In this document: positions 18,252-26,806 of the stretch, one piece after another
How the letters are laid out: every line of letters starts with the position of its first letter
Position numbering within the stretch: the stretch's first letter is position 1
Virus record (IMG/VR): IMGVR_UViG_3300048061_000071
Span: 1-49,696 of that record
Length of the DNA stretch: 49,696 nt
Reading direction: 5' to 3' (one strand)
DNA from: a virus
Program-made: the position numbers and the translations under genes
The notes under the pieces: model-generated
Seen by the model: the letters and a program-made list of their open reading frames with translations, nothing else
Database searches by the model: none
What the model was told of the DNA's origin: nothing

Positions 18252-18415
18252 TATTCTAGAAAGAAACTTTTAGCTTCTATTTCCTGTTTAATTTCTTCTT
18301 GAAATGAAGTGTTTAATTTTGTTATTACTGAATCTAGATCTCTAACTAAAGACTGTAAATTTTCTTGACTATATTCACGATTAGCTTTGGTTAATGAATT
18401 TACAATTTTTGCCAT
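18251..18415 (-). CDS. Small coiled-coil protein (54 aa)
   Basis: A 54-aa, almost wholly helical peptide (MAKIVNSLTKANREYSQENL, then SLVRDLDSVITKLN) with heptad-like spacing of Leu/Val. Both ends are joined to neighbours by 1-nt TAATG overlaps, which is good evidence for translation. It could be a small assembly chaperone or part of a fibre or tail complex. I do not recognise a family. Confidence 0.72.
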   Translation of the reverse strand: MAKIVNSLTKANREYSQENLQSLVRDLDSVITKLNTSFQEEIKQEIEAKSFFLE

Positions 18416-19512
18416 TATAATATACTTGCTAGTCCTCCGTCCATATAATCCGTTCTTCCTCTACCAGTTCTATTACTTACAGGTCCACCAGTTGTTGCAC
18501 CCACACCAAACCCTAAATTTCCTGCTCCTATAGAATCACCACTATAAGATTGTTGACCATCACTTCCTTGCCCATAATTAGTTTCTCCATGTACAGCAGG
18601 GTCATAGCCTCCTTTTCCTAAATTTTTAATTCTTTCTATTTCTTTTGCTTTTTTTTCTGCTATTGTTTCATTAAATGCTTGTTGTTTTAATTGTTGTTGT
18701 CTAAAAATATATTTTTGTCTCATCATATTAGTCATTTTATTTGCTTTTTCTGCAGCTTTTATATCATCTGGATTTTCAAACATTCCTGTTTCAGGATTAA
18801 ATTGTACACCATATTTTTCAGACAATCTTCCTGTTAAACTTTTTTCAAGACTACTATAATCATCTTTAACTTTTTCCGCATAGTTACCAAATGCAGATCT
18901 AACATTAACACCAAAAGGATCTACATAATTTCCTCCAGTATTTTCACCAAATACTGTTGGACCTTTGTAACCCATGCTTTGTTTTATAAATTGTTGATCA
19001 AGTTCAGGTAATGTATTAAATCTATCCATTTTACTAAGAATAGCACTTATAGGACCAAAGCCACCTGCTTTATTCGCTAAATTTTGAATACCACCTGTAA
19101 TATTTCCTGCAATATTTTGAAGTTTACCAGCTGTAGTTAGTTCTAAAGGAATATCTGTACCTGATCCAATATACTCACCCATGTCTGCACCCGTTAATTG
19201 TCCAGTTTGGTAACTTGGAAAACCCATAAAAGTTTTATCAAGTTTACTTTGATACAGATCATCAACTAATGGTGTTGGTTGTCTTTTTGCATATGCATCA
19301 AAACCAGCGCTTGCAAAATCTTTGTAATTTATATCGCCAGCTTGTAGTGCTCCACCGCCACCACCGCCACTATTCATAAAAGCATTTGTATTTACAATAC
19401 CTGAATTAGTTACAGGTTCTTGATTTTGAGGTAATTGAAAAGGGTATTTTAAATACTGTTGTTCTGGAATATATTTAAAACCTGCGTCTCGTATCTCTTG
19501 GTCAGTAGCCAC
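18415..19512 (-). CDS. Putative virion protein ending in a GGLASIL tail
   Basis: A 365-aa protein starting with GTG that overlaps the stop of the tail protein gene (TAGTG). It is rich in Gln, Asn, Gly and Tyr, with a poly-Gly run (GGGGGG near residue 50) and a charged helical segment (about 255-300, many Lys/Gln). The last residues read YMDGGLASIL, closely similar to the C-terminus FAKGGLAKILEV of the 330-aa protein at 43853-44845. I know no function. Position after the nozzle-like tail gene suggests a tail or internal virion protein. Confidence 0.7.
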   Translation of the reverse strand: MATDQEIRDAGFKYIPEQQYLKYPFQLPQNQEPVTNSGIVNTNAFMNSGGGGGGALQAGDINYKDFASAGFDAYAKRQPTPLVDDLYQSKLDKTFMGFPSYQTGQLTGADMGEYIGSGTDIPLELTTAGKLQNIAGNITGGIQNLANKAGGFGPISAILSKMDRFNTLPELDQQFIKQSMGYKGPTVFGENTGGNYVDPFGVNVRSAFGNYAEKVKDDYSSLEKSLTGRLSEKYGVQFNPETGMFENPDDIKAAEKANKMTNMMRQKYIFRQQQLKQQAFNETIAEKKAKEIERIKNLGKGGYDPAVHGETNYGQGSDGQQSYSGDSIGAGNLGFGVGATTGGPVSNRTGRGRTDYMDGGLASIL

Positions 19513-21692
19513 TATCTTCTTCCTCCTGGTGATATATCTAATCTAAAAGTTCCTAACTTCCAGTCTTCATTTGCACCTGTATTTGCAACTTCTAATGCAA
19601 TTTGTCGTGCTCTTACTCTTACATCTTTTTTTGTTGTAGAGGAAGTACAATTGAAACTATTGGTAACTTGTGTGCTATTTGGATACAATCTTGTTTTAAA
19701 TTTAATAGCTGTTGTCCCTGTTTGATCTATAAAATCTGGTATAAATCTGCTTATCCTCATTATGAATTCTCCGTCTCCTCTTAAATCTGGCATACCTACT
19801 GTCTGTCCTGTGCTGCTTCTACGTTGTGTAATATCAAAATCACCAGAAGCTATGTTTGCTATTATAGCTGTAACAGCTCCGCCGGCGTCCACTTGATCGG
19901 TCCCTGTTTCATGCTCATAGTATATTGTACAGCCGTCGGTATTACCAACAACATCATAAGAACTATTGCTAGATGAATCATAAAAAGTTGCATGTGGTTT
20001 ACCAAACAAAGCAGAATCTTCCCACGCTGTCCTTGCTAATGTGCCGGTTGTCCAAATAGGTCTGTTAGCGGATGAGTCTAAATAATTATATGTGACTACT
20101 TTATTAATTAGGTTGGATGCAGAGCCACAATAAAACCAATTAACTTCTCCGAATAAATTATTTAAACCACAGTTTATTAAATCTCTTGCCGTAGTATTAA
20201 TATCGTCATATACAAAATCTTCTACTAGACAAGGTAATGATTTTAATTGTCCATCATAAGTAAAGAAACCATTTTCCGACATCCAATAAGCTTTACCATC
20301 TACTTCTACGCAAGCATTCTTACCTATGAGTCCACAGTTTGTACCTACTTGTTGAAAAGAAAAAGTAAAAGGCGCACCAACAAATTGCATTAAAAATAAT
20401 GCTGTATCTGTCCAAATATAAATTGCGTCTCTACCTTTAAGGGCTCCCATTATTCTTGATCCATCAGCCAATCTTTGTGTACCGGCGGTATTGTTTGCAG
20501 TTACAGTATAGGAGTCTGTTTGATCAATACTTTCTTGGTCAGAGAATCTAATAAACATATCGTCTTGAGTAGCACTATTACCTACTGTTGTTTCTGTGCC
20601 AAAAAATACTAAGTGTCTATCTGGTGTAGATACTAAAACATGTCTTGATGCCGTAGGTGCGTTAGGTAAAAGAGTTGCCCTAACGTTAACAGCATTTGTT
20701 GGAGATCCATCCCATTCAAAACAAGGACCATTATAAATAAGTGCTATTAGTTTTTGACCATAGTTATCTAAAATCCATAGTCCAGGGTCAATAGTAAAGT
20801 CTTCAGCTGTTGAAGATTCTCCCCATGCAACGTATTCAGAAATATTTGTAACCGTAGCACCTAAAGTATGTGTAGCTGCGGTCGTTCCATTAACTCCTCT
20901 TGCTCCTCCACTTAAAGTGTTGGTGCTGGTGTCATTCGCCGTGTAACTTATATCTTCATTATCTATTCTAATTTCTCCCGATGTTGGAAAAGCTGAAGTG
21001 CTAGATAAAACTATGTTTGTAGTAGTGGTATCAGTTAACGCTGTAGCAAGAGTAGTGGTTGCTGCTCCACTTGTTTGACCGCTCCAGTTACCTGCTCCGT
21101 ACCCAAAACCACCCAGTTGTTGAGAGGGACCAACATTGTAATAACATAAAACAGAAGCTGATCCACCATTTGTTACAGGAGTTCCTGCCTCTGCAGTGTT
21201 CATAGTAATTGTAAATGTAGTTGCACTTGGAACTGAGGCAACCATAAATTTTACATCTTCAAAGGTTGCGTTGGTAAATGTAGATCCGCTTAATCCTGTT
21301 ACACTATCAAATAAAACAATATCATCTTCTAATAATCCGTGAGTCCCGGTGCATGTTACGGTAACCGTTGTAGATGAAGCGGTGCTTGTAAAATTAGCTC
21401 CTGTTAAAGTTGCTCGAATGGGGTGAATATCATAATACTGACCACCAACATAAACATATAAAATTTTATTAGTGCCTATAACAGAATACTTAACACTGGC
21501 TTTGTTTTCAAATTGATGTATTGCTCTTGCAGAACCTGTTAATTTATCTTCACCTAATTGAGTCCAACCACCTATTTTCTCTGGTGTACCGTACCTAAAA
21601 CGTACATTGTCCCCATCAAACCATTGCCCTTCAGCTCCGGTTTCTGTGACTTGTTTATTAAATCCTGGTGCAAAGCCTAGTTTTTGTAGCAT
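19512..21692 (-). CDS. Podovirus tail nozzle/hub-like protein with inserted beta modules
   Basis: A 726-aa protein. Its N-terminus (LGFAPGFNKQVT, then WFDGDNVRFRYGTPEKIGGW, residues 24-43) is the hallmark of a large podovirus tail protein family that I associate with the tail nozzle or tube. The core beta-propeller-like sequence is interrupted by Thr/Ser-rich insertions at about 97-185 and 212-284. The second insertion is closely similar to modules in two connector-region proteins of this genome. Several conserved cysteines and GLIGKNACVEVDGKAYW (about 440-460) follow. A Shine-Dalgarno-like AAGGGA precedes the ATG. Assigned from family resemblance and from its place next to tail genes. Confidence 0.8.
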   Translation of the reverse strand: MLQKLGFAPGFNKQVTETGAEGQWFDGDNVRFRYGTPEKIGGWTQLGEDKLTGSARAIHQFENKASVKYSVIGTNKILYVYVGGQYYDIHPIRATLTGANFTSTASSTTVTVTCTGTHGLLEDDIVLFDSVTGLSGSTFTNATFEDVKFMVASVPSATTFTITMNTAEAGTPVTNGGSASVLCYYNVGPSQQLGGFGYGAGNWSGQTSGAATTTLATALTDTTTTNIVLSSTSAFPTSGEIRIDNEDISYTANDTSTNTLSGGARGVNGTTAATHTLGATVTNISEYVAWGESSTAEDFTIDPGLWILDNYGQKLIALIYNGPCFEWDGSPTNAVNVRATLLPNAPTASRHVLVSTPDRHLVFFGTETTVGNSATQDDMFIRFSDQESIDQTDSYTVTANNTAGTQRLADGSRIMGALKGRDAIYIWTDTALFLMQFVGAPFTFSFQQVGTNCGLIGKNACVEVDGKAYWMSENGFFTYDGQLKSLPCLVEDFVYDDINTTARDLINCGLNNLFGEVNWFYCGSASNLINKVVTYNYLDSSANRPIWTTGTLARTAWEDSALFGKPHATFYDSSSNSSYDVVGNTDGCTIYYEHETGTDQVDAGGAVTAIIANIASGDFDITQRRSSTGQTVGMPDLRGDGEFIMRISRFIPDFIDQTGTTAIKFKTRLYPNSTQVTNSFNCTSSTTKKDVRVRARQIALEVANTGANEDWKLGTFRLDISPGGRR
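20841..21059 (-). repeat. Inserted beta module, copy in tail protein
   Basis: Codons for residues 212-284 (TTLATALTDTTTTNIVLSS, FPTSGEIRIDNEDISYTA, then GGARGVNGTTAATHTLG). The same pattern, including FPTSG and RGVNGTTAATH, recurs in the proteins at 29906-30847 and 29085-29906. Confidence 0.75.
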
Positions 21693-21726: not shown

Positions 21727-22233
21727 CTAGCCCTTATTACCATTCCAAACATCAAAGGAACAGTTAAAAGCTATCACAGTTTTACGCTTTTTAGAGTCAT
21801 TTTTTTTAGAACGGTGATACTTATATGATGGAAATATTAATATATCCCCCTCTTTTGCTTTTATTTTAGAACCATCTAAAAATTCTGTGACCATAGATTT
21901 ACTGGGCATTTCTAAATAATAAACTCCTGCAAATTGAGATTCTCCATGATTATGCCATCCATGGGCATCCCCTCGATGATATTGTTGAAACCAACTTGAA
22001 TGAATCCTCCAATTTTTTGAATGAAAATTTTCACATAACATAAGCATATGTTGCTTAATGTTGTCATAAAAAATATCTAAATATTCTCTTTTTACGGAAG
22101 CAGATAAATAAAAATCAGTATGAGATATTTTATTATTCTCATGTTCAGTTAATGAAAATTTAGGAACCTTGCTAATAGATTCTAATAATTTATTTTTTAT
22201 TAATGTATGATTCTTAAGAGGATGTACCCACAT
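21727..22233 (-). CDS. 2OG-Fe(II) oxygenase-like protein (copy 1)
   Basis: A 168-aa protein of the 2-oxoglutarate/Fe(II)-dependent dioxygenase superfamily. The jelly-roll signature is HGWHNHGESQFAGVYYL (91-107; candidate metal ligands H94/H96) and GDILIFPSYKYHRSKK (129-144; H140), then KRKTVIAFN (149-157). These enzymes hydroxylate protein, nucleic-acid or small-molecule substrates; the substrate here cannot be read from sequence. It is smaller than the other copies. It overlaps the next oxygenase by 1 nt (TAATG). The cassette is visibly more AT-rich than the flanking tail genes, suggesting acquisition. Confidence 0.88.
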   Translation of the reverse strand: MWVHPLKNHTLIKNKLLESISKVPKFSLTEHENNKISHTDFYLSASVKREYLDIFYDNIKQHMLMLCENFHSKNWRIHSSWFQQYHRGDAHGWHNHGESQFAGVYYLEMPSKSMVTEFLDGSKIKAKEGDILIFPSYKYHRSKKNDSKKRKTVIAFNCSFDVWNGNKG

Positions 22234-22892
22234 TATATTTTATATTGTCCTACTGTTTCTCCATTCTTTATTATTTCTCCATATTTACCTCTTAATATTA
22301 CATCAAATGCAATAGTTACCCTAGACTTATCGGACGTGTTTCTATCTACATAGTGATATAAATAAGATGGAAATAATATTAATTTATCTTTTTCCCATAT
22401 TGATTCTAAAACATTACAGTTTATTGGATTGTATTCTTCAATGATTGGTAAATTTGGTAAAGCGTATGGTCTTAAAAATTTTAAAGGAGAATATTCTTTA
22501 GTCTCCCCACCTAAATAGAATACACCACTTACGAAAGTATTCATGTGATTATGTGGAGGATGATTCATATTTTTTTCATTTGAATTTAACCACATAGACA
22601 CGATGTCTACTTTATACCCTTTTTTAATCTTAAAATAATTTTCTGCTAATATAGAAACGCTTAACTTTATTTTTTTTGTAAGATCGTTAAAGAAAGGATC
22701 TTTTTGTAAATTAATAGTTTGACCACCTTTTGAATTATAATATTTTGTTTTTTTAATGTTTAATTTATCAGATACCCCTGGATAAACTACTTCAAAGGTA
22801 GGTGTCATAAAATGACCACATAGTTTAGGATATAGCTCCACATGTTTTGGTAGAGGCACACTATACATAAATTGTTTAGCTTTTTTTGGCAT
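22233..22892 (-). CDS. 2OG-Fe(II) oxygenase (copy 2)
   Basis: A 219-aa 2-oxoglutarate/Fe(II) oxygenase resembling the pfam13759-type enzymes of marine phages. The first metal-binding segment is HPPHNHMNTFVSGVFYLGG (111-129) with H111, H114 and H116 as candidate ligands. The second is KLILFPSYLYHYVDRN (170-185; H180) followed by SRVTIAFD (190-197), where R191 would bind the 2-oxoglutarate carboxylate. There is an unusually basic N-terminus and Lys-rich linker. It sits 9 nt after the stop of the frameshifted copy and overlaps copy 1, so all are co-transcribed. Substrate unknown. Confidence 0.9.
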   Translation of the reverse strand: MPKKAKQFMYSVPLPKHVELYPKLCGHFMTPTFEVVYPGVSDKLNIKKTKYYNSKGGQTINLQKDPFFNDLTKKIKLSVSILAENYFKIKKGYKVDIVSMWLNSNEKNMNHPPHNHMNTFVSGVFYLGGETKEYSPLKFLRPYALPNLPIIEEYNPINCNVLESIWEKDKLILFPSYLYHYVDRNTSDKSRVTIAFDVILRGKYGEIIKNGETVGQYKI

Positions 22893-22901
22893 CTTTAAAA
22901 C

Positions 22902-23509
22902 TTATTTAAAAGGAGGACCTATTGTCCACATAACTAAACTCTTTCTAGTTCCTTTTGTTACTGGCGTTACTCTATGCCATACATAAGATGGAAATATTAT
23001 CAAGTCACCTTGATGAGTTAATTCAGTGGCCTTTTTAATATTATTACCTTTTTTATTATTTCTAAAATCAAACTCAAAATCACCACCCTCATATTTACTT
23101 GTATCATTTAGAAGTAAAGTACAACTTAGTTTTCTTGTCTTACCATTAAAATTAATATCATCGCTTTTATATATTTCACTTGATTGATCACAATGCCAAT
23201 CGTAATGTTGATTCTTTTTATATATAGTATATTGAGCCTCTTCTACCCAATCAAACTCATAATTCCAATTGGCTGCTTCATTTGCTTTTCTAACATAATA
23301 TATAATTTGATCATAAATAGCTTGATCTGAAAAAAATTTTATATCTGAATTTCTTTTTTTAAATAATTTTTCTTTTTCTTTCTTAGCATTATTTATTCCG
23401 GATATAGTTCCTTTTATTGGTTTTATTTTTTTACAATATCCTCAATCTTTTTACAAAAATCTTTATTAACAGCATTTTTAAAATACCAATATCCATTTTT
23501 ATGTATCAT
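22902..23509 (-). CDS. 2OG-Fe(II) hydroxylase read through a -1 frameshift (copy 3)
   Basis: Translation starts at the ATG at 23509, directly after the stop of the upstream gene, and runs 28 codons (MIHKNGYWYFKNAV, then IEDIVKK) to a TAA at 23425. A -1 shift at A_AAA_AAA (23432-23426) continues without a stop for 174 codons to TAA at 22904, giving 202 aa. The fused protein has a full prolyl-4-hydroxylase-type site: H106-x-D108 (HYDWHCD), H179 (FPSYVWHR) and R189. The downstream frame has no usable start codon of its own. GAGG lies 7 nt upstream of the heptamer. Programmed frameshifting, transcript slippage, a sequencing error in the A7 run or a recent pseudogene are all possible. Confidence 0.75.
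23423..23432 (-). other. Candidate -1 frameshift site A_AAA_AAA followed by TAA
   Basis: In the zero frame the codons are GTA-AAA-AAA-TAA, which is a perfect X_XXY_YYZ slippery heptamer with the stop codon directly after it. An SD-like GAGG lies 7 nt upstream. No strong downstream stem-loop is evident, only a short GGA/TCC pair. Confidence 0.6.
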
Positions 23510-24124
23510 CTAATCTAAGTCCCAACTTATAATAATTCTATCTTTTAATTTATTATTTTTTAATTCTACTTTATGAACTAAATACGATCTAAAAATTAAT
23601 AACATACCTTCTATTGGTTTATAAAAACATTCAGTAAAAGAATGATCTTTTTGTAGATGTTCTTTACTATTATTTGCAGTTACATCAAAAGGATTTTTCA
23701 TGTCTACTGGAACAGGAGAATTAAAAACTACTCTAGAATCATTGGGATCACTTTGAAGATAATAAATAACAGAAATAGTTCTACCTAAATGAACATGGGC
23801 GTCTGCTAAATTATTTTCTTTATACCAATGAAACCACGATTCAACTGGTTTATATTTTTTTGGAAAACCATAAAAACTTGTGTACTCATTTACTCTATTC
23901 TGAATCCATGAATTTAAATTTTTTAATTTTTTATCTTTGTGACAAGGATGAAGAAAAAAACTAGATTGACCAATAGACTTAGGACAATTAGATTTAATTT
24001 TTTCTAAATGTTTTATTATTTGTGGAGCGTCTTTATTATGATTTTTATAAAAACTAGCTCCTATCAATGTAGGAAACCAAGCATTTATTTCTAATTCTTT
24101 TGATCCTGAATTTAATTTAAACAT
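23510..24124 (-). CDS. 2OG-Fe(II) oxygenase-like protein (copy 4, first in cassette)
   Basis: A 204-aa protein starting at ATG 24124 (a TTG at 24139 would add five residues). The oxygenase fold is seen in SWFHWYKENNLADAHVHLGR (H110 and H112 in this numbering), TISVIYYL, then LLIFRSYLVHKVEL (H184) and KDRIIISWDLD (R196). The spacing is that of the pfam13759-type enzymes, with an inserted loop between the motifs. It is the promoter-proximal gene of the oxygenase cassette, 28 nt from the predicted transcription start, and its TAG is followed without gap by the ATG of the frameshifted copy. Substrate unknown. Confidence 0.85.
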   Translation of the reverse strand: MFKLNSGSKELEINAWFPTLIGASFYKNHNKDAPQIIKHLEKIKSNCPKSIGQSSFFLHPCHKDKKLKNLNSWIQNRVNEYTSFYGFPKKYKPVESWFHWYKENNLADAHVHLGRTISVIYYLQSDPNDSRVVFNSPVPVDMKNPFDVTANNSKEHLQKDHSFTECFYKPIEGMLLIFRSYLVHKVELKNNKLKDRIIISWDLD

Positions 24125-24158
24125 CTTTCTGTAATACAAAATTCTTCATTCTGAATTA

Positions 24159-24186
24159 CATATAGCATGTATAGGAAAATAATCAA
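24159..24186 (-). promoter_or_regulatory. Candidate promoter of the oxygenase cassette
   Basis: On the minus strand TTGATT (24186-24181), a 16-nt spacer and TATATG (24164-24159) lie between the glycine-rich tail gene and the first oxygenase gene. This would let the cassette be transcribed independently of the tail operon. The match is moderate and the region is AT-rich. Confidence 0.45.
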
Positions 24187-24196
24187 GTTATAGTGA

Positions 24197-25054
24197 CTAC
24201 TGAAACCTGTATTTAATGATCACTGTTCCAGAACCACCAGATGAACCACCAGGTGAATCACAAGATCCTCCAGCTCCACCGCCTAATCCGTTAGTTCCAC
24301 TTCCAACGCCTCCACCAATAGATGCTGCTCCATTACCGCCTCCACCAGCTCCTCCTGTTCCTGCAGGGGGACCAGATTGACGTGAACCTCCACCGCCTCC
24401 AGCGTAAGTAGTTGAATTTGGAGACCATTCTCTTCCAGCTCCTCCGTTACCAGGTGAGGATCCGTTTGCAGAAGCACCTCCGCCGCCGCCTGATACAGTA
24501 GTACCTCCAGATCCAGCTCCTCCGTTATTTCCAAAACCGGTTAATCCAGCACTATCACCTTGGTTTCCAGAACCTCCTCCAGCTCTAGCACCGCCTCCAC
24601 CAGAACCTCCAGAGAGACCAGGGCCTGAACCACCGCCTCCGCCGCCTCCGCCGCCATTAGCAGTTGCTCCATTAAAAGTTGAATTAGATCCACCAGCTCC
24701 ATTTTGGTTACCAGTTCTTGTAGCTCCACCTGAGCCAATACTTACTGGGTAAGAACCTTCTGTTAAATTTGTAAAATTACCCTCTAAAAAACCACCAGCA
24801 CCTCCAGCGCCACCGTTTCCTGTTCCGTCTCCACCGCCGCCGCCTCCAGCAACAACTAAAACTTCAACAGGGTAGGCAGAAGGGTCACTGTATTCTGTAG
24901 TTACTTCAAATGTACCTGATGATGTAAATGTATGTAGTTTGAAATCGCCTGATGTTGTAATAGTTCCACCTGTAGCTTCCATAAATGTTTCAGAACCTCC
25001 TGAAAATCCAAATCCTCTAGCTGCAGCTCCTCCTCTTGTTCCTAATAATGGCAT
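24197..25054 (-). CDS. Glycine-rich tail adhesin-like protein
   Basis: A 285-aa protein. A short N-terminal part (about 1-75, with HTFTSSGTFEV, typical of the entry to glycine-rich fibre domains) is followed by about 190 residues of Gly-rich, Ser/Asn-containing sequence with many GGGG, GGAGG and SGGSG turns, ending in SGTVIIKYRFQ. Such polyglycine-helix sandwich domains form receptor-binding tips in phage adhesins. The coding strand is locally much richer in GC than its neighbours because of glycine codons. It lies at the end of the tail fibre cluster. Host-receptor recognition is inferred from composition and position. Confidence 0.82.
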   Translation of the reverse strand: MPLLGTRGGAAARGFGFSGGSETFMEATGGTITTSGDFKLHTFTSSGTFEVTTEYSDPSAYPVEVLVVAGGGGGGDGTGNGGAGGAGGFLEGNFTNLTEGSYPVSIGSGGATRTGNQNGAGGSNSTFNGATANGGGGGGGGGSGPGLSGGSGGGGARAGGGSGNQGDSAGLTGFGNNGGAGSGGTTVSGGGGGASANGSSPGNGGAGREWSPNSTTYAGGGGGSRQSGPPAGTGGAGGGGNGAASIGGGVGSGTNGLGGGAGGSCDSPGGSSGGSGTVIIKYRFQ

Positions 25055-25443
25055 TATTCATCACCTCCTGTTAACGGTAGTTCCCATGATTGCGTTGATT
25101 CTTCCCAACGCCATTGTGTAATATTATTTGGTTTTGGAACTGGTGGGTTCCAATTAAAATCACTGTCTAATGTCCAAGAAGGCCACGGTTGTTCAATATA
25201 AAATCTATCTGCATCTGAAGACCAATTATCTCCTATTGATGGAGCTACTCCTCTCCATTCTCCTGTTCCTTCTTGATATAATCCTGCTGCTTTCCAAGTA
25301 CCAGTAGTTTCTCTAACTTTATTAGCAAAAGTAGTAGTTAATTCATCACTAATACCGTTTTCATCAGAAATATCTGTTTCAGCTACAATAATAACATCAA
25401 CTACAACATTATTTTCATCTATTTTTGCTGCACTATATAACAT
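25054..25443 (-). CDS. Tail fibre-associated protein of marine phage type
   Basis: A 129-aa protein. I chose the ATG at 25443 because AGGAGT lies just upstream; an upstream TTG at 25539 would overlap the fibre gene. It starts MLYSAAKIDENNVVVDVIIV and ends with a Trp/Pro-rich segment (PWPSWTLDSDFNWNPPVPKP, then QWRWEESTQSW). This N- and C-terminal pattern occurs in small proteins beside tail fibre genes of marine cyanophages and relatives, where they are thought to decorate or help assemble fibres. Its stop overlaps the adhesin start by 1 nt (TAATG). Confidence 0.78.
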   Translation of the reverse strand: MLYSAAKIDENNVVVDVIIVAETDISDENGISDELTTTFANKVRETTGTWKAAGLYQEGTGEWRGVAPSIGDNWSSDADRFYIEQPWPSWTLDSDFNWNPPVPKPNNITQWRWEESTQSWELPLTGGDE

Positions 25444-25513
25444 ATAATTCCTACTCCTTTTTATCTCTTCTGGATCTTGTTTGGAATAATAATCCCATAG
25501 CCCAAAACTATCC

Positions 25514-26806
25514 TTATGCAAACTGCGTTTGTGAAGCAAACGCTGTAAATGCTGCGTCCCCAGTTTTTATAATAGTGTACTGGTACACGTCAACTGAGTT
25601 AATGTTTCCCGCAGTAGGTGCTGCACCCCCCTGCCATTCAGGAGTTACACTTGAACCATCAATTGTAAAAGCATTGTTGTAGTAAGCAGTGCCGCCTTGT
25701 GTAACTAAGTGAGCAATTGTGATAGACTCACCGGCATCCATAATAGTATTTAAAGTTGTAGAACCGTCTCCTCTAATATTTAAAGTATAGTTGCCTGAAG
25801 CATTTGAAGTAAAGTACCATACTGCTTGTGTAAGAACATCGTAGTTAACAGTTCCTGTAGCAGCCGTAGCTTCTACTGTAACTTTTTCTGCAACACTTTC
25901 AATTTTACCTTGACCATCTACAGTAAATCTTCCGTAACCGTTAGGGGCTACAGTCATATCAGCGTTAGCGCCATCTGTAATAGTAACTGTTCCTGAGTTA
26001 GTTCCGCTGTTTGTACTTAAGACTAAATCAGTTGCTCCGCCAGTAGTTAATGTCAGAGTTCCAGCACCATTAGATGTTAAAACTGCTGCCGCTCCTGAGT
26101 CTCCAACTTTTACAGTATCACCTGCAAGAACAACATCTCCAGTTCCTTTTGGAGTTACGTTAATATCAATATTTGTATCACCACCAGTAGATGAAAGAGT
26201 AGGTCCTGCACCTGTGGCTGCGTTTGCAATTGTAAATTCATTAACTGCAGAACCCGTAGCTGTTAAAAGCGCAAGTTCATTTCCGTTAGTATCTAAAATT
26301 GAAGTTCCAATTTTAGGACTAGTTAAAGTTTTGTTTGTTAAAGTTTGAGTTCCAGTAAGAGTTACATCACCAAAATCTAGAGTGTAAATGTCTGGGTTAG
26401 TTCCATCGTTTGCTGTAGCAAACACAAGTTGATCACCTTTGTCTGTTGCACTAAAAGTAAATGAATCTCCTGAACCAGAAGCATATTTAAATTGTACTGT
26501 GTAAGCACCTGATGTTGAATTTCTTAAAAAATAAAATGTTTGTGCATCTAAAGGAATTGTTACAATTCTATTTCCTGTAATACTTCCTGTGAATTCAATC
26601 ATTCTGTGAGACATTACTGCCCCAGTTGCTCCATCAGATACAGATAAAGCTGTAGTTCCGGCACCACCTGCTATAGATTGTGCAGAATATCCACCAGCAA
26701 TTTGCTCGATGATATTTAAATTCGTATTTGTTTTTGTTCCCCAAGTACCGGCATTTTCACCGGTTGCCATTAATTCTACGCCAAGCGCTGTGTATGTTGA
26801 TGCCAT
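25514..26806 (-). CDS. Tail fibre protein
   Basis: A 430-aa protein rich in Thr, Gly, Ala, Ser and Asn with short beta-repeat sequence. It contains LTGTQTLTNKTLTSPKIG (150-167), a motif commonly seen in trimeric tail fibres and spikes of marine phages, followed by repeats such as VTPKGTGDVVLAG and LTLTTGGATDLVLST. The C-terminal 100 residues form a distinct domain (VWYFTSNASGNYTLNIRGDG). It lies between a repeat-containing structural protein and the fibre-associated protein. Role: distal tail fibre or tailspike for host attachment. Confidence 0.82.
   Translation of the reverse strand: MASTYTALGVELMATGENAGTWGTKTNTNLNIIEQIAGGYSAQSIAGGAGTTALSVSDGATGAVMSHRMIEFTGSITGNRIVTIPLDAQTFYFLRNSTSGAYTVQFKYASGSGDSFTFSATDKGDQLVFATANDGTNPDIYTLDFGDVTLTGTQTLTNKTLTSPKIGTSILDTNGNELALLTATGSAVNEFTIANAATGAGPTLSSTGGDTNIDINVTPKGTGDVVLAGDTVKVGDSGAAAVLTSNGAGTLTLTTGGATDLVLSTNSGTNSGTVTITDGANADMTVAPNGYGRFTVDGQGKIESVAEKVTVEATAATGTVNYDVLTQAVWYFTSNASGNYTLNIRGDGSTTLNTIMDAGESITIAHLVTQGGTAYYNNAFTIDGSSVTPEWQGGAAPTAGNINSVDVYQYTIIKTGDAAFTAFASQTQFA

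Follow-up and report, generated by a model that had tools for sequence, protein, structure and literature searches.

The 49,696-nucleotide sequence of IMG/VR virus record IMGVR_UViG_3300048061_000071, referred to here over its full length as the window, carries on its minus strand a block of four genes encoding 2-oxoglutarate (2OG)-Fe(II) oxygenase domains. The genes, ox1 to ox4, lie back to back at positions 21,727–24,124 within the tail operon. The first is ox1 (23,510–24,124; 204 residues; PF13759, E = 2.8e-13), for which alignment with orthologues favours the ATG at 24,124 over a TTG at 24,139 as the start. It is followed by ox2 (approximately 22,902–23,509; PF13640, E = 7e-18 at 22,923–23,234), which is frameshifted in this record, ox3 (22,233–22,892; 219 residues; PF13759, E = 3.8e-16, and TIGR02466 above cut-off) and ox4 (21,727–22,233; 168 residues; PF13759, E = 1.3e-13). 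The PF13759 matches (E = 1e-13 to 4e-16) and the PF13640 match are all above the curated cut-offs, and neither family is matched elsewhere in the 49.7 kb record. Upstream, on the same strand, is a glycine-rich protein (24,197–25,054; PF21722, Gly_rich_2, E = 1.7e-17), whose designation as an adhesin derives from its family and position and which is the substrate proposed below. It is paired with a small protein, g161 (25,054–25,539; phrog_7759, E = 9e-19), beyond which lies a tail protein of the phage backbone, adh430 (25,514–26,806; phrog_31104/phrog_5906). Downstream, the block is bounded by a nozzle-like virion protein (19,512–21,692; phrog_3287, E = 4e-92). An initial annotation, made from the sequence alone, had placed four tandem oxygenase genes between adhesin and nozzle genes, and the domain matches bear out both the tandem and its site.

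That annotation overlooked the condition of ox2: all four domains are present, but the gene is not open here. Its frame from the ATG at 23,509 is broken after 28 codons, and the remainder lies in the -1 frame. At the break is a run of seven A residues (23,426–23,432, minus strand) with a TAA directly after it, where four near-identical contigs (L006–L009; 99.5–99.9% DNA identity to the window over the block) have eight; over the whole block the window differs from L006 by a single mismatch and this single gap. A run of seven where such close contigs have eight implies that the break is either a read or consensus error or a rare allele. The gene is intact in L006–L010, and the L006 copy matches PF13640 at E = 5e-16. 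As the sequence reads, A_AAA_AAA is also a perfect -1 slippery heptamer, at which a -1 slip would restore the frame; it is therefore conceivable that some full-length product would be made even if the shorter allele were real.

The four proteins are likely to be enzymes of the active type, as judged from their conserved histidine ligands and from selection on their genes. In the orthologue alignments ox1 has an invariant H110-x-H112, H184 and R196; the corresponding residues are H114-x-H116, H180 and R191 in ox3, H94-x-H96, H140 and R150 in ox4 and, taken from intact relatives, H106-x-D108, H179 and R189 in ox2. The H-x-H form is also found in the aligned PDB entries 3BVC and 2RG4, uncharacterised proteins of the same PF13759 family, and is thus a family trait of ox1, ox3 and ox4, not a loss in the phage. 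The ratio of non-synonymous to synonymous substitution (dN/dS), taken only where divergence was large enough to measure, is 0.11 for ox1 (against L013), 0.21–0.26 for ox3 and 0.16 for ox4; the range of 0.11–0.26 indicates purifying selection. The ox2 protein matches PKHD-type hydroxylases and, weakly, 5C5T (vCPH of PBCV-1); ox1 has no sequence match in the PDB, and an AlphaFold model of ox4 reached a predicted local distance difference test score (pLDDT) of only 38. Because orthologues in other phages are approximately 55–87% identical, as against at most 25% between paralogues, the four are old, distinct paralogues, in keeping with their earlier description as different but related. Recent tandem duplication was rejected as their source on the same figures. 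No bacterial relative of ox1 was confirmed among genome contigs, in a search that reaches close relatives only.

The oxygenase genes are AT-rich, as had been noted: their GC content is 0.25–0.29, whereas the window as a whole has 0.36, the nozzle gene 0.38 and the adhesin gene 0.50. This composition is no sign of recent acquisition, because equally low values (0.20–0.34) occur at the same place in relatives and in cultured phages; it is the content of the site that changes. The separate promoter proposed for the block has also been abandoned, since the minus strand, on which the genes are encoded, has no sigma-70-like site at 24.16–24.19 kb, and the 21 promoter-like sites of the region are no excess over shuffled sequence (17.5 ± 4.5).

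Related loci were retrieved by searches with ox3, ox4, g161, the nozzle and a further island protein, exD (phrog_2954); the 76 loci found through the nozzle were selected without regard to oxygenases. In 67 of these, at least one of the three genes directly upstream of the nozzle encodes an oxygenase; of the three genes downstream, none does so in any locus. When 82 non-identical islands were compared, 78 held oxygenases, usually two to nine each (most commonly three to five, with a maximum of nine) and always upstream of the nozzle, so that a block of four in the tail region, initially thought unusual, is ordinary for this phage family. The 82 islands comprise 413 genes, 326 of which encode 2OG enzymes; distant members were assigned to sub-families loosely, by ad hoc hidden Markov models (HMMs), and the label 2OG is accordingly safer than any sub-family label. 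The non-2OG genes include 20 that are gp64-like, 13 for tryptophan halogenases, six for carbamoyltransferases, three for sulfotransferases and two for methyltransferases; representatives matched Trp_halogenase (E = 1.5e-108), Carbam_trans_C (E = 8e-49) and Sulfotransfer_3 (E = 7e-14) in Pfam. The site is fixed, from the glycine-rich/g161 pair to the nozzle, and g161 adjoins glycine-rich genes in most loci, but the genes between are shuffled from one relative to the next. A row of nine, in L030, reads DUF6445, phrog_274, ox1, ox2, phrog_2297, phrog_2954, phrog_274, ox3, ox4. The exD gene is absent from the window and its closest relatives and present in L022, L024, L026 and L030.

Other features of these operons were observed in passing. 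In L059, L064, L214, L225, L259 and the cultured phage HTVC027P (gp72–74), the oxygenases are encoded on the other strand from the tail genes, an arrangement that would fit inversion of the block or its insertion as a whole. The g161 of islands with extra oxygenases has, on alignment, a C-terminal extension that the g161 of the window lacks. A protein of approximately 170–184 residues recurs after g161 in many islands (L266:2460-3014, L042 gp64) with no Pfam or NCBIfam match, and a gene of approximately 110 codons, unassigned to a family, often directly precedes the nozzle (L057:7189-7536 and 15 similar). The gene after the nozzle (18,415–19,512 in the window) shows conservation over its first 72 residues only in comparison with L007, L010 and L020, which are otherwise near-identical to the window; this makes it a second variable site of the tail operon.

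There is evidence that the island is exchanged together with g161. Among 28 anchored loci of the nozzle-retrieved set, ox2 was present in 18 and absent from none of those with g161, and present in two and absent from eight of those without it (p = 1.4e-5, a value that overstates independence because the loci are related); the only exceptions are the two loci with ox2 alone. A table of 65 loci, in which some contigs were entered twice, gives the same pattern, the sole g161-positive locus without ox2 being the window itself, with its frameshift. Pairwise identities to the window run in both directions. In L204 the nozzle is 88% identical, whereas g161, the glycine-rich protein, ox1 and ox2 are only 24–43% identical; in L022 the four oxygenases are 69–87% identical and g161 and the glycine-rich protein 61–75%, as against 44–49% for adh430 and the nozzle, the latter being 49% identical over the stretch that this contig covers. 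In a partial Mantel test covering 38 loci, g161 co-varied with ox2 once the nozzle had been accounted for (r = 0.37, p = 0.0005), nozzle and ox2 did not co-vary (r = -0.15), and the identity of adh430 follows that of the nozzle (rho 0.58), not that of ox2. On these sequence comparisons, turnover of the island is decoupled from that of the tail genes on either side.

Cultured phages place the island in a wider context. The window nozzle is 46–47% identical to its homologues in HTVC027P, 023Pt_psg01 and HTVC023P, and the window g161 is 25–28% identical to the copies in HTVC033P, 023Pt_psg01 and HTVC023P; these relatives suggest a SAR11 host. HTVC023P has its glycine-rich protein, g161, ox2, a PF13759 protein and exD together (gp62–gp67), away from the nozzle (gp72), and HTVC033P and 023Pt_psg01 have the same gene set. 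The HTVC023P-type clusters resemble that of the window in having several non-orthologous 2OG genes near each other, a related nozzle and the adhesin module. They differ in that their 2OG genes are ‘not adjacent’ (PMC9599517), whereas those of the window are strictly tandem; in having phrog_2954 partners; and in that ox1, ox3 and ox4 of the window differ from their set. HTVC027P has no glycine-rich protein at the site, and its 2OG genes there are three different ones, encoded on the opposite strand.

A comparable arrangement occurs in cyanomyoviruses. In Syn9, two PF21722 proteins, gp38 and gp39 (annotated ‘tail fiber assembly’), precede a pair of halogenases and then a series of 2OG genes. By HMM matches to the same families, Sf-CH11, S-RIM44 and S-CAM8 likewise have Gly_rich_2-type proteins directly before clusters of halogenase, 2OG and carbamoyltransferase genes; S-CAM8 additionally matches g161, ox2, exD and the carbamoyltransferase, and in S-CREM1 a ‘collagen-like’ gene stands ahead of a halogenase/2OG run. 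These five phages were found through a halogenase or carbamoyltransferase and are therefore not a random sample. The clusters of Syn9, S-RIM44, Sf-CH11 and S-CAM8 share with the window the order of Gly_rich_2-type proteins and then 2OG genes. They also contain exD, often with a halogenase or carbamoyltransferase, and differ from the window in belonging to T4-like phages, in numbering 2–10 genes and in being accompanied by many further 2OG genes elsewhere in the genome. The best solved-structure match of the halogenase of related islands (E = 2.6e-116) is VirX1, a flavin-dependent halogenase of cyanophage Syn10 (PDB 6QGM), for which a review gives only test substrates; the window itself has no halogenase.

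The protein phrog_2954 (exD) is labelled a ferrochelatase. It has an invariant H-x-D...H motif and no ferrochelatase match in Pfam, and its predicted structure, from a model built on alignment rows from IMG/VR loci only, is closest (Z approximately 17) to the P4H of Pseudomonas putida, solved with EF-Tu, and to PHD2. The ferrochelatase reading was therefore rejected, and by motif and predicted fold phrog_2954 is a 2OG-Fe(II) oxygenase (examples are L015:4873-5463, L042:12528-13148 and NC_008296 gp54). PBCV-1 vCPH (5C5T) and the P. putida P4H (4J25, 4IW3) are of the same P4H fold class, although they are only approximately 10–15% identical to the phage enzymes. On the same grounds, published statements about phage ferrochelatases (PMC9599517, PMC11561400) probably concern another 2OG enzyme. 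Two more labels in the islands look wrong: phrog_274, ‘DNA endonuclease V’, and phrog_1644, ‘minor coat protein’ (L278:15406-17113, L013:2424-4214), have 2OG or DUF6445 domain matches.

Taken together, the block and its related islands suggest that these phages chemically decorate the protein with which they grip the host. The reading that we favour, and to which we would give slightly less than an even chance, is that the cassette represents one version of a tailoring island that phages exchange at a constant position in a podovirus-like tail operon (that of HTVC023P-type relatives), with enzymes that hydroxylate the adhesin and/or g161. The enzymes would be made late, together with the tail proteins, and each would hydroxylate particular residues of the glycine-rich adhesin, of g161 or of both; in other phages, hydroxyl or aromatic groups would be further sulfated, carbamoylated or halogenated. 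Enzyme swaps would then alter the receptor-binding surface chemically at a faster pace than sequence change could achieve by itself. The tail adhesin is indicated as the substrate by the tail-operon site, the near-exclusive content of hydroxylases and group transferases, the modular exchange with g161 and the reappearance of such islands next to Gly_rich_2 proteins in another family of phages. The resemblance of exD to prolyl hydroxylases with protein substrates, and that of ox2 to PKHD-type hydroxylases, also count in favour of this reading. We infer the step from gene context to substrate. Virion or adhesin proteins had been among the targets first suggested, with the four enzymes acting differently; this is still the best current reading, and the enzymes do differ from each other. 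A broader version is possible but somewhat doubtful: that marine phages of unrelated tail type carry exchangeable islands of several enzymes, by which their glycine-rich tail adhesin is hydroxylated, halogenated, sulfated and carbamoylated, and that a tail adhesin would then also be the native substrate of VirX1-type halogenases.

Several observations weigh against adhesin tailoring. Oxygenases occur at this site without a glycine-rich protein in L230, L260, L274 and HTVC027P. Conversely, of the 68 loci with g161 that lie outside the nozzle family, 49 have a glycine-rich neighbour and no detected 2OG gene. In general, then, the adhesin does not need the enzymes, which would act as a further layer. 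Co-variation of the glycine-rich protein itself with ox2 is not significant (r = 0.07, p = 0.25, from a low-complexity and weakly informative alignment), and physical adjacency alone could be behind part of the co-transfer. The presence of a halogenase makes no difference to the tryptophan or tyrosine content of the adhesins; for histidine p = 0.02, uncorrected for six tests. Finally, ten cyanomyoviruses were chosen without regard to the association; six of them have a Gly_rich_2 match, and in these six such a match is no more than 7 kb away from 11 of the 73 2OG loci, compared with 6.1 expected (p = 0.09, not significant). Since S-SM1 and S-SSM7 show a clear island and P-SSM2 and Syn1 do not, the association is recurrent, not general.

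The alternative that survives best is that these are auxiliary metabolic genes (AMGs), with host metabolites, 2OG levels or host regulators as targets, and that the tail site merely tolerates cargo. The literature files them in this way. Wittmers et al. (PMC9599517) described eight non-orthologous 2OG genes with ‘ferrochelatase’ partners in HTVC023P-type phages, classed as AMGs, in a main text that mentions neither glycine-rich proteins nor tail fibres; these pelagiphage genes are seasonally enriched (PMC11561400), and cyanophage 2OG enzymes have been tied to 2OG/NtcA signalling (PMC3037559). The variable content of the island, its capacity to be inverted and the oxygenases that have no glycine-rich neighbour are further points in its favour. 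However, a generic cargo site should hold other AMGs too, and hardly anything other than 2OG enzymes and group transferases occurs in the islands, where no gene of central metabolism was recognised in the clusters examined; the co-variation of g161 with ox2 beyond the nozzle background also speaks against it. We consider it unlikely, while regarding it as a serious competitor to adhesin tailoring.

It has less in its favour, and seems improbable to us, that the targets of hydroxylation are host proteins of the cell surface or of translation (outer-membrane proteins or EF-Tu, for example), to the benefit of infection. The closest folds of exD do include a bacterial P4H solved with EF-Tu, but this idea predicts neither the site in a structural module nor the co-travel with g161, and such hydroxylases would more likely be early genes. 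We give very little credence to modification or repair of DNA or nucleotides. Repair was proposed for cyanophage 2OG genes from their uvsX/uvsY/uvsW neighbours, a proposal repeated in PMC9146016, and PHROG names include ‘DNA endonuclease’; these nuclease names are at odds with the domains found, the four genes belong to the PF13759/TIGR02466 and PF13640/PKHD classes with no AlkB or TET/JBP match in Pfam or NCBIfam, and no replication genes lie beside the block. Just as implausible is the ‘Ferrojan Horse’ idea, raised for HTVC027P (PMC12753301), of virion-borne, iron-binding tail components that are not enzymes, which the tail-operon site would suit but which the conserved arginine, the full 2OG domains under purifying selection and the co-resident halogenase, carbamoyltransferase and sulfotransferase, enzymes and not iron carriers, speak against.

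Clusters of 2OG genes in pelagiphages were known already (PMC9599517); no published connection of phage 2OG clusters with adhesins or tail fibres was found in the titles, abstracts and passages of open-access papers that were consulted. Few unexplained genes of marine phages are as common as those for 2OG-Fe(II) oxygenases, which are as a rule labelled metabolic. The genomic context described above leads to a different and directly testable proposal, namely that they are components of the tail module and serve to modify the adhesin. Were this so, a role would be found for phage 2OG enzymes, including those misnamed ‘ferrochelatase’, and possibly for viral halogenases, and covalent modification would be one more means, besides those already known, by which phages vary receptor binding. 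If, in addition, phages of unrelated tail type do the same, both chemistry and sequence would contribute to the diversification of receptor binding.

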